Assembly: GCF_000443995.1 (NCBI RefSeq)
Contig: NZ_AUMC01000003.1
Coordinates: 496,001-560,000, forward strand
Length of the DNA: 64,000 nucleotides
Direction of reading: 5' to 3'
From: Bacteriovorax sp. BAL6_X
GTDB taxonomy: Bacteria > Bdellovibrionota > Bacteriovoracia > Bacteriovoracales > Bacteriovoracaceae
This document shows positions 23,634 to 29,535 of this stretch, piece by piece (positions within the stretch are counted from its first letter, which is position 1; each line of letters opens with the position of its first letter). Below the pieces are notes generated by a model, which was not told where the DNA came from, ran no database searches, and worked only from the letters and a program-made list of their open reading frames with translations. The translations under genes and the position numbers were made by a program.

Positions 23634-24476
23634 ATGTCATTGAAATTAGATGATTTGAAGAACTTTATTGTGGTTTCTGAGTTAAAGAATGTCACACGAG
23701 CTTCTGAGCAGCTAGGTTTAACTCAGCCAGCTCTAAGTTATTCGATCAAGAGGCTAGAGGAAGAGCTTGGAGCGCCAGTTTTTATTCGTCTAAAAAGTGG
23801 TATTGAACTTACAAAGTTTGGAGAAGAATTTCATCATCGTGCTAATAAGCTTTTACAAGACTGGCAAGATGCTAAAAATATTTTCAATAAAGAGGGGGAA
23901 GATATTGTTGGTGAGTTTAAAGTTGGAATTCACCCTTCTGTTGCAATTTACTCTCTCCCAATTGTATTACCTTTAATTTATAAAAATTTTCCGCGCTTAA
24001 ATTTCAGGCTCATTCACGACTCTTCTCGCGTGATTACTGGTAAGGTAATCAATTTTGAAGCTGATTTTGGTATTGTAGTTAATCCTATAAAGCATCCAGA
24101 TTTAATTATTAATGAAATGGGAGTTGATGAAGTTAAGCTATTTGAATCAGATCGTCCAAAGAGAGAGAATAATAAATTAATATATAACCCTCAATTGGCC
24201 CAAAGTCAGGACTTACTTAGAAAGTTAAAAGATAATTCAATCTTAATTGATGGACATATCGAAAGTGACAATTTGGAAGTCATTGCAAAGCTTACAAGCG
24301 AAGGTGTGGGGATAGGCCTTCTTCCAAGTCGAGTGGCCTCTAATTATAAGAACCTTGTTCCGATTAATGATTCTCCAATTGTTAAAGATCAAATCTCATT
24401 GGTTTATCGTGTCGAGATGAAGAATTCTTTATTAGTTAAGGATATCTTAGAGATTGTAAAAGACTCTTTAATTTAA
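23634..24476 (+). CDS. LysR-family transcriptional regulator
   Basis: A 280-aa regulator: N-terminal winged HTH (LDDLKNFIVVSELKNVTRASEQLGLTQPALSYSIKRLEEELGAPVFIR), a linker helix, and a periplasmic-binding-protein-like effector domain from about residue 90. It lies 7 bp after the ATP-grasp gene on the same strand and probably belongs to that operon, which is unusual since LysR genes are commonly divergent from their targets. Its 3' end overlaps the convergent rlmN by 4 bp. The effector is unknown. Confidence 0.9.
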   Translation: MSLKLDDLKNFIVVSELKNVTRASEQLGLTQPALSYSIKRLEEELGAPVFIRLKSGIELTKFGEEFHHRANKLLQDWQDAKNIFNKEGEDIVGEFKVGIHPSVAIYSLPIVLPLIYKNFPRLNFRLIHDSSRVITGKVINFEADFGIVVNPIKHPDLIINEMGVDEVKLFESDRPKRENNKLIYNPQLAQSQDLLRKLKDNSILIDGHIESDNLEVIAKLTSEGVGIGLLPSRVASNYKNLVPINDSPIVKDQISLVYRVEMKNSLLVKDILEIVKDSLI

Positions 24477-25513
24477 GAAGGCAAATTAAGCTTTTCGTAT
24501 TGTGTTTTTAACTGGCCACAAGCTGCTAAGATATCATCACCTTTAGTTTCTCTAACGGTACAAGTAAGTCCTGCTGCTTGTAGAGATCTTTGAAACCATT
24601 CAATATGCTCATCACTTGGGCGCTTAAATTTACTTTCAGGGTATTCATTAAAAGGAATAATATTAATCTTTGATTCCTTCTTAGGAAGGTTTTCAATCAA
24701 TCCATCAATATCTTCTTGAGTATCATTAAGATCTTTAATTAAGAGGTACTCATACATGATTCGTCGAGAGTTCTTAACAGGAATTGATCTCAGGGCCTCA
24801 AGAAGGTCATCAACTTGGTAGCGCTTATTAATTGGCATCAGCTCTGAGCGTAGATTATTTCTAATAGCATGAAGAGAGATGGCCACATTGACGTCAGGTA
24901 GCTCTTCCCATTGCTTGATCTTCGGGACAAGTCCTGAAGTGGAAATCGTAACCTTATGTTTACTTAGAGCGATTCCAAGAGGATCTGTTAAAAGGTAGCA
25001 GGCCTTCTTAACATTTTCGAAGTTATGAAGTGGTTCACCTTGACCCATAAAAACAATATTTGAAATCTGATACTTCGGGTCGACATTATCTTGCATCCAT
25101 TTAGAGACAGTTAGGTACTGACCGACAATTTCAGATGTTTGTAGGTGTCTTGTAAGCCCCTGAGTGGCCGTGTGACAAAAAGTACAACCAATGGCACAGC
25201 CGACTTGTGACGAAATACACAGAGTCGATCTTAGGCGCTTATCATTTTCACTTTCAATAAGGACTGCCTCAATTGAGTTCTTATCATCTAAACCAAGCAG
25301 AAATTTTCGCGTTCCATCTTTGGAAAGGCCCTGCCAAAGAATCTTTAGTAGCGATAGGTCATATTCCTTTGCCTTTTCTCTAACAACGCGTGGGGCATTT
25401 TCCCATGTGTCAGGATTAAAATTTAACTTTTTATAGACCCACTTTCCCATGATTTTTGCTTCATCATATGGGAAACTTTCTAAAGTTAAATTATATAGGC
25501 TTGTTTTTGTCAT
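24473..25513 (-). CDS. rlmN: Radical-SAM rRNA/tRNA (adenine-C2) methyltransferase RlmN, copy 1
   Basis: A 346-aa radical SAM enzyme that methylates C2 of A2503 in 23S rRNA and A37 in some tRNAs. The [4Fe-4S] motif CAIGCTFC is followed by HTATQGLTRHLQ; NIVFMGQGEPLHNFENV and the catalytic C-terminal Cys in TKGDDILAACGQL are present. The N-terminal HhH-like accessory domain is complete. ATG start at 25513. A second complete homologue lies 2.6 kb away on the same strand, which is noteworthy because most genomes carry one. Confidence 0.93.
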   Translation of the reverse strand: MTKTSLYNLTLESFPYDEAKIMGKWVYKKLNFNPDTWENAPRVVREKAKEYDLSLLKILWQGLSKDGTRKFLLGLDDKNSIEAVLIESENDKRLRSTLCISSQVGCAIGCTFCHTATQGLTRHLQTSEIVGQYLTVSKWMQDNVDPKYQISNIVFMGQGEPLHNFENVKKACYLLTDPLGIALSKHKVTISTSGLVPKIKQWEELPDVNVAISLHAIRNNLRSELMPINKRYQVDDLLEALRSIPVKNSRRIMYEYLLIKDLNDTQEDIDGLIENLPKKESKINIIPFNEYPESKFKRPSDEHIEWFQRSLQAAGLTCTVRETKGDDILAACGQLKTQYEKLNLPS

Positions 25514-27766: not shown

Positions 27767-28144
27767 ATGAATATTATCTTTATCGACGGTAAGTGCTTAA
27801 TATGTAATGGCCTTGTCAAGATTATTTATCGAATCGATCACAAGAAGAGGGTTAAATTCTGTCACCTGCAGGACCCTAAAGCGCTAGATTATCTTCAACA
27901 AGATTTTGTTAAGAATCTCTCCACAGTTGTTTTCTATCAAAATGGTGAGGTTTCAACGAAGTCAGATGCCGCGATTGCGGTAATGGTAGAATTAGGCCAT
28001 CGCTATTTTAGGGTTTTTAAAATAATTCCGAGGCCACTAAGAGACTGGCTCTATGAAGTCGTTGCGAAAAATCGCTACAGACTTGGTAAGGAGTTAGAGA
28101 CTTGTCCAGTTCCTGATAAGGATTTAGCAAGTCGCTTTCTATGA
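27767..28144 (+). CDS. DCC-family thiol-disulfide oxidoreductase-like protein (DUF393)
   Basis: A 125-aa protein with the defining DGKCLICNG motif (Cys-x2-Cys) right at the N-terminus, followed by RVKFCHLQDP and a conserved YRVFKIIPRPLRDWLYEVVAKNRYRLG segment. This family is predicted to have a thioredoxin-like active site; a biochemical role is not established. No signal peptide. Its 3' end overlaps the convergent second rlmN by 6 bp. Confidence 0.85.
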   Translation: MNIIFIDGKCLICNGLVKIIYRIDHKKRVKFCHLQDPKALDYLQQDFVKNLSTVVFYQNGEVSTKSDAAIAVMVELGHRYFRVFKIIPRPLRDWLYEVVAKNRYRLGKELETCPVPDKDLASRFL

Positions 28145-29176
28145 GTCTTGTGATGTCAATTGTCCACAGGCCGCTAAAATATCATCGCCCTTTGTTGTGC
28201 GAACCATGGCGTGAAAGCCGAGCTCTATTAGGCCTTTTTTAAATTCTTCGACGGCCGCCATTTCTGGCCTCCTGTAAGGAGCTCCTGGAAATTCATTAAA
28301 TGGAATGAGATTAAAAATAACGGGCATCCCTTTTAAGAGTCGACCAATTTCTTCCACATGCTTCTTTGTGTGGTTTAAGTCGCGAATAATTAAGTATTCA
28401 AAAGTTAGGAATTGGCGCTTCATTAACTTGATCGTCTTAAGCTCATCTATTAATTTATCAATAGGGTAGGCTTTATTAAGTGGTATGAGCTCATTTCTTT
28501 CTTCATTAAATGGAGAGTGGAAGCTGAGAGCAAAGTTAACGCTTCCTAGCTCACTGAATCTTTTTATGCCTGGTAAGTATCCGGCCGTTGAAAGAGTAAT
28601 TTGTCTTGGACCTAATCCCATGCCTTCTTTTGTCTTTAGGATTTCAATGGCATCCGCAACATTATCTATATTATGGAGAGGCTCACCTTGTCCCATAAAG
28701 ACAATATTAGGAGCAGCTTGATGGCCTTGAAACTTCTCTTTGATATAGGCATAAGCTTGTAAATATTGAAGAATAATTTCTTTCTTCTCTAGCGAACGTG
28801 TTAACCCCTGCGTTCCTGTAAAACAGAATGAGCATTTCATAGCACACCCAACTTGAGAAGAAAGGCAAAGTGTATATTTCTTTTGAAAGGGAACACAGAC
28901 TGTTTCCACTGTTCGTCCATCACTAAGTTTAAATAAAAGCTTAACAGTCTTATCATCAACTGATTCTTGAATCTTAGCGATTTCAAGTAGGTCAAAAGAA
29001 TATTTTTCTTCTAATAGCGAGTAGAGTTTTTGAGGTAGACCAGTAATCTCTTTAAAGGATACTGCCCCATGCTTATAAACTTGGGTATAGATTGTTTGAG
29101 CATGGACTCCGGTAAATCCATGCTCAGTGATGAAGTCTTCAAGACTCGAAAGTGGGGTTGAAAAGAATGACTCTAT
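28139..29176 (-). CDS. Second RlmN-type radical-SAM methyltransferase with an apparent AUA start
   Basis: An RlmN homologue with CAMKCSFC, TGTQGLTRSLE, NIVFMGQGEPLHN and the terminal TKGDDILAACGQL. Starting at the first ATG/GTG/TTG (GTG, 28909) would remove about 89 residues that are plainly RlmN-like, including SFFSTPLSSLEDFITEHGF and AVSFKEITGLPQKLYSLLEE. The frame stays open upstream with no ATG, GTG or TTG. An ATA at 29174-29176 overlaps the upstream stop (TAATA) 8 nt after GGGG and gives 345 aa, matching copy 1 (346 aa). Alternatives are -1 frameshifting from the upstream gene, another rare start, a sequence error, or loss of the start. Confidence 0.72.
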   Translation of the reverse strand: MESFFSTPLSSLEDFITEHGFTGVHAQTIYTQVYKHGAVSFKEITGLPQKLYSLLEEKYSFDLLEIAKIQESVDDKTVKLLFKLSDGRTVETVCVPFQKKYTLCLSSQVGCAMKCSFCFTGTQGLTRSLEKKEIILQYLQAYAYIKEKFQGHQAAPNIVFMGQGEPLHNIDNVADAIEILKTKEGMGLGPRQITLSTAGYLPGIKRFSELGSVNFALSFHSPFNEERNELIPLNKAYPIDKLIDELKTIKLMKRQFLTFEYLIIRDLNHTKKHVEEIGRLLKGMPVIFNLIPFNEFPGAPYRRPEMAAVEEFKKGLIELGFHAMVRTTKGDDILAACGQLTSQDS

Positions 29177-29535
29177 TAGATCATCCCCATTTTCTTTGCT
29201 TGCTCCATCATTTGCTCGCGCTGCTCTGGAGACATATTCTGTAACATATCTTGCATTTTTTGTAGCTCTTCTGGCGACATTTGAGACATCATCTCTTGTG
29301 CCTTAGCATACATATCTTGCTGATTTTCAAATTTCTTCATCGTAAAAATGATTTTTTCTGGGCCAATTTCACTGTCGATCATTTTCTTTTCTCTTAGTTC
29401 TTCGAGAACCTTATTTAGGCTTAGGCCTTTACTATCTGCAACTTCATACATCTTTTCAGTAGGAAGAGATACCTTCTTTTCAGGGAAGCCATTGGCGCTT
29501 AAATTCTTGATAATTTGATCAATAAATTTTTCCAT
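29176..29535 (-). CDS. Small hypothetical protein with Met/Gln-rich C-terminal helix
   Basis: A 119-aa protein with no domain I recognise. The first ~70 residues look like a small mixed fold; the rest is a Met-, Gln- and Glu-rich helix with a repeated MSPEE/MSPEQ element (SQMSPEELQKMQDMLQNM then MSPEQREQMMEQ), like the STI1/DP-type motifs of co-chaperones, though this is only resemblance. AAGGA lies upstream of the ATG. Its TAA overlaps the presumed AUA start of the second rlmN gene, so the two are probably coupled. Confidence 0.7.
   Translation of the reverse strand: MEKFIDQIIKNLSANGFPEKKVSLPTEKMYEVADSKGLSLNKVLEELREKKMIDSEIGPEKIIFTMKKFENQQDMYAKAQEMMSQMSPEELQKMQDMLQNMSPEQREQMMEQAKKMGMI

Follow-up and report, generated by a model that had tools for sequence, protein, structure and literature searches.

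An RlmN-like gene with ATA, overlapping the upstream stop codon, at its probable start

The analysed window, a 64,000-nt (64-kb) stretch of Bacteriovorax sp. BAL6_X DNA, carries two RlmN-like genes on the minus strand (Table 1). One has an ordinary ATG. The reading frame of the other is closed upstream by a stop codon just before 29302 and contains no ATG, GTG or TTG between there and a GTG at 28909, and RlmN-like sequence extends over 89 codons ahead of this GTG. Among the AUN codons of the extension, the ATA alone gives a full-length RlmN. The 3' end of the upstream gene reads ATG GGG ATG ATC TAA, and the rlmN frame crosses it in the -1 register as GAT GAT CTA ATA GAG TCA TTC; if ATA is the start, TAATA constitutes a stop/start overlap of two co-directed genes. 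On re-reading of the sequence, the coordinates, the length of the extension, the shared A of TAA and ATA and the 8-nt spacing of an upstream GGGG, all proposed in an initial annotation of this DNA, proved correct, as did its statement that no canonical start precedes the GTG.

Table 1. Features around the rlmN junction and the second RlmN-like gene of the window
Feature	Position	Strand	Remarks
rlmN-like gene	28139..29176	minus	345 codons from ATA + stop; TIGR00048, 325 bits; 61%/59% identity to same-genus orthologues
ATA, ancestral start-codon position	29174..29176	minus	ATG at identical codon in same-genus orthologues L005/L053, L006
TAA stop of upstream gene	29176..29178	minus	last A is first A of ATA, giving TAATA (29178-29174)
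GGGG, possible Shine-Dalgarno (SD)	29185..29188	minus	8 nt ahead of ATA; duplex with assumed anti-SD, -5.5 kcal/mol
Upstream gene, 119 aa (MEKFIDQ...GMI)	29176..29535	minus	no Pfam/NCBIfam match
GTG, first canonical in-frame start	28907..28909	minus	product a 256-aa fragment without N-terminal domain; SD -3.0 kcal/mol, weak
Other RlmN-like gene, ATG start	24473..25513	minus	TIGR00048, 339 bits

RlmN methylates A2503 of 23S rRNA and A37 of tRNAs, and the same function is predicted for this gene. In profile searches, the translation from ATA exceeded the cut-off of the TIGR00048 RlmN equivalog (290 bits) and scored well below the cut-offs of the Cfr models. It contains the CxxxCxxC radical-SAM motif (CAMKCSFC) together with YTLCLSS and AACGQL, whose cysteines we take to be catalytic from general knowledge of Escherichia coli RlmN. 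A codon-usage survey of the window for coding signal upstream of the first ATG, GTG or TTG ranked rlmN as by far the strongest ORF (11.3, next best 2.9) and yielded no second ATA-start case in these 64 kb, where a genome-wide habit of ATA starts thus found no backing. The chance that the 88 codons after ATA include no start-like codon is ~0.05, so this absence is unremarkable taken alone; it is homology that makes the case.

Two further RlmN-like genes, at C3:443451 and C10:721176, bring the number in this genome to four. The four genes of this 3.2-Mb genome fall into distinct clades that are common to relatives. In the tree, the ATA gene clusters with orthologues from Bacteriovorax sp. DB6_IX (G004) and G003, beside the clade of the C10 gene, a placement that marks the organism as a predator of Halobacteriovorax/Bacteriovorax type. 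Other RlmN homologues (L020, L022, L023 and places in G142 and G150) have open frames of only ~284-311 aa and apparently lack most of the N-terminal domain.

The ATA marks the ancestral start position

Alignment places an ATG at exactly the ATA codon in the G004 and G003 orthologues, with neither extension nor deletion; their N-termini read MKSFYNYTLNELEDL and MQNFYDYSLTDFKSL, respectively, and the gene studied here begins (I)ESFFSTPLSSLEDF. The C10-type gene of G001 likewise has ATG at that codon (MRSFYSLNYSELKEL), and the conserved N-terminal pattern (M)xSF(F/Y)xxxLxxL begins at the ATA. Thus, the ATA of BAL6_X marks the ancestral start position, and the start defined by homology, as expected of a natural AUA start, falls on the AUA itself. 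The ATA is not conserved, being present in one genome only; the relatives listed carry ATG or other canonical starts, and of the 75 highest-scoring RlmN loci listed for the family, all the others have a canonical start near that position. As far as the search extended, the change from ATG to ATA appears confined to this genome. The ATG in G003 and G004 also supports the ATG loss that the initial annotation had suggested; its proposal of a G-to-A substitution that left AUA as the start is one of two possible routes, the other being loss at a breakpoint.

The same alignment bears on a base-call or assembly error, in which case the true sequence would be ATG in an ordinary TAATG overlap. A single base separates TAATA from that coupling, and same-genus orthologues do have ATG at this codon. 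Against an error, the assembly comprises 10 contigs and is 99.98% complete, and no other gene of the window is missing its start; we judge this reading to be rather improbable.

The gene junction is new to this lineage

Orthologues of the upstream gene are found in 16 of 58 relatives. Its 119-aa protein is methionine-rich and conserved among Halobacteriovorax relatives. In G003 and G004 this gene lies 17 and 11 kb from rlmN, respectively, on the same strand in both, and in G007 and G015 the distance is 23 and 13 kb; the genes in between vary by species. The contents of this interval (L165, L166) differ between G003 and G004, resembling a variable insertion region, and this genome shows no evident orthologue of two proteins encoded there, an M48 peptidase in G003 and a second TruA in G004.

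Since the two genes abut here and lie 11–17 kb apart in same-genus relatives, TAATA was made by a lineage-specific rearrangement, and since the pair is uncoupled in relatives, the overlap itself is new. The rearrangement was probably a deletion, and the simplest history is one in which it brought the upstream stop right up against the rlmN start; the ATG could have been lost either at the breakpoint or by a G-to-A change.

The history of the junction also bears on the GGGG run, which the initial annotation had offered as a possible -1 frameshift site. The G003 copy of the upstream gene has the terminator-like ending GGGGCTAATCTAAGCCCCTTTTTTT, and other relatives show comparable GGG(G) ends. 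Upstream-gene orthologues not followed by rlmN also contain the GGGG, there as the leading arm of a repeat resembling a terminator; the run is therefore inherited coding/terminator sequence rather than a frameshift signal. Programmed frameshifting where the upstream gene ends would yield a fusion with RlmN, and the geometry would allow it: relative to that gene, rlmN is read in the -1 frame, which is free of stops back to 29302, with the GGGG run at the gene end. However, no slippery heptamer of the form X XXY YYZ occurs in the right frame, conserved RlmN sequence begins at the ATA, and upstream gene and rlmN are apart in all relatives examined. With an inherited run, a gene pair that is not conserved and no in-frame heptamer, we rejected the fusion, which we hold to be very unlikely.

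The N-terminal part shows no sign of decay

In Tajima relative-rate tests that compared this gene with its G004 and G003 orthologues and took G015 and G007 as outgroups, the counts were 31:28, 36:32, 39:29 and 36:31, none of them significant; control paralogues of the same genome gave counts that were alike or more uneven. When the protein was split at residue 89, the N-terminal part gave 10:11, 13:10, 12:9 and 11:10, and its identity to the orthologues resembles the identity among the orthologues themselves. Near-invariant sites are kept at 66 of 68 positions, the two differences (2/68) matching the number in another intact paralogue. Across 345 codons, N-terminal part included, there is no stop, frameshift or excess of substitutions. 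Relaxed constraint as a sign of a pseudogene was thus not seen in rlmN, in tests that have little power against recent loss. Nothing suggests that the N-terminal part has long been untranslated; therefore, either the start was changed recently or AUA is in use.

These data weigh against a functional 256-aa protein from GTG 28909 as the sole product. That GTG is the only canonical in-frame start near the N-terminus, and the family does include homologues with short N-terminal parts. Yet the N-terminal part has not evolved faster than that of the orthologues, the GTG is a valine codon inside a conserved VETV motif preceded by a weak SD, and a 256-aa product would be shorter than even the short homologues (284-311 aa). 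We consider this reading highly unlikely.

An incipient pseudogene is harder to dismiss. Its start would have been lost recently, it would make no useful full-length RlmN, and its frame would be open only for lack of time. The genome has three further RlmN-like genes, the ATA is not conserved, and UAAUA without an SD is almost inactive in E. coli (PMC9955659). Set against this are the intact 345 codons and the activity that AUA with an SD retains elsewhere (PMC13009471, PMC12864459). Such a state is possible, if doubtful.

Initiation signals at rlmN and infC

A search of the assembly for the 16S 3'-end pattern GGATCACCTCCTTT gave no match, and the anti-SD was therefore taken as canonical. The infC gene of this genome served as a control: it has no fitting ATG, GTG or TTG start and begins GGAGGTGATTT-ATT, and the ATT with its GGAGG, which fits the canonical anti-SD, is common to all six genomes examined (L178 of BAL6_X itself, at G000:C8:142460-142969, and L175-L177, L179 and L180). 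Calculated with the assumed anti-SD, the duplex of infC in this genome reaches -10.8 kcal/mol, compared with -5.5 for the GGGG of rlmN and a median of -4.0 for the genes of the window. The infC gene of E. coli starts at AUU. Conservation of the infC ATT implies that the genus uses at least one apparent non-canonical start, of a different anatomy. As the ATA would be at rlmN, the AUU of infC, in E. coli and in this genus, is a non-canonical start in a translation-related gene; unlike the ATA, which is confined to one genome, the infC start recurs in six genomes and has a strong SD.

Weak translation from AUA is the most likely state

The sequence of this locus is well explained if a redundant rlmN paralogue, now at a newly formed gene junction, has lost its ATG in this lineage only. 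The state that we favor, at about even chances, is an intact paralogue whose ancestral ATG is now ATA in this lineage and which is weakly translated from AUA; the most likely state thus appears to be weak AUA-initiated expression, with the incipient pseudogene and the base-call error as serious rivals. A deletion would have joined the upstream stop to the rlmN start, removing the terminator and rlmN's own leader, and the change in the start codon would date from that event, at the breakpoint, or from a subsequent G-to-A substitution. Ribosomes that terminate at the overlapping TAA, together with the GGGG 8 nt upstream, would then assist initiation at AUA, and the yield of full-length RlmN would be low, some 1-10% of that from AUG. 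The loss would be tolerable given three other RlmN-like genes.

Three points count against weak AUA translation. UAAUA coupling without an SD is nearly inactive in E. coli (PMC9955659). The ATA, unlike the infC ATT with its strong SD, is not conserved. The GGGG may be held in a predicted hairpin with CCCC at 29154-29157, although this pairing does not go beyond shuffled sequences (z -0.96). A working natural UAAUA termination-reinitiation that keeps RlmN at a selected level, unlike the E. coli junction without an SD, seems to us unlikely on balance.

Either outcome would be informative. If AUA is used, ribosomes would be reinitiating at a non-canonical codon that overlaps a stop, which is seldom seen in nature, and the junction would offer a simple way to gauge the extent to which termination upstream can make up for a lost start. 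If it is not, the locus would cleanly illustrate how a rearrangement can silence a paralogue that is redundant, and an automatic 256-aa gene call from the GTG would miss the N-terminal domain.

Comparison with known AUA starts

AUA starts are rare but documented in bacteria, which makes the use of AUA at rlmN plausible. In Staphylococcus aureus, infC, ccpN and citZ start at AUA, with reporters giving ~10% of AUG and ccpN up to 30% in rich medium; citZ AUA is lineage-restricted (PMC13009471). Like these, rlmN is an ordinary chromosomal gene with AUA where translation would begin, and like the citZ AUA its ATA is restricted to a lineage. The S. aureus ccpN and infC sites, however, have extended SDs and initiation shown by ribosome profiling, whereas the rlmN ATA is a start proposed from sequence and overlaps an upstream stop. 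An ATA is also carried by ralp3 of emm4 Streptococcus (PMC11238559).

An ATG>ATA mutant of E. coli rpoS makes up to five-fold less RpoS (PMC12864459); the same paper quotes a figure of Hecht et al. 2017 for ATA of up to 1% of ATG. This mutant shares with rlmN a single-base ATG>ATA difference in an intact gene, but it is of laboratory origin, its lowered protein was measured and it has no new junction with an upstream gene.

The closest counterpart of the junction is the engineered UAAua construct, which has the same stop/start pentanucleotide, TAATA. In E. coli with active RRF, in-frame reading past a UAAUA junction without an SD amounted to 0.4% of the ribosomes arriving from upstream, compared with 24.7% for UAAUG; without RRF activity the UAAUA value was 17.2% (PMC9955659). 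From the 0.4% it follows that coupling alone would hardly rescue rlmN in E. coli. The rlmN junction differs from the engineered one in its GGGG 8 nt upstream, which might help initiation at AUA.
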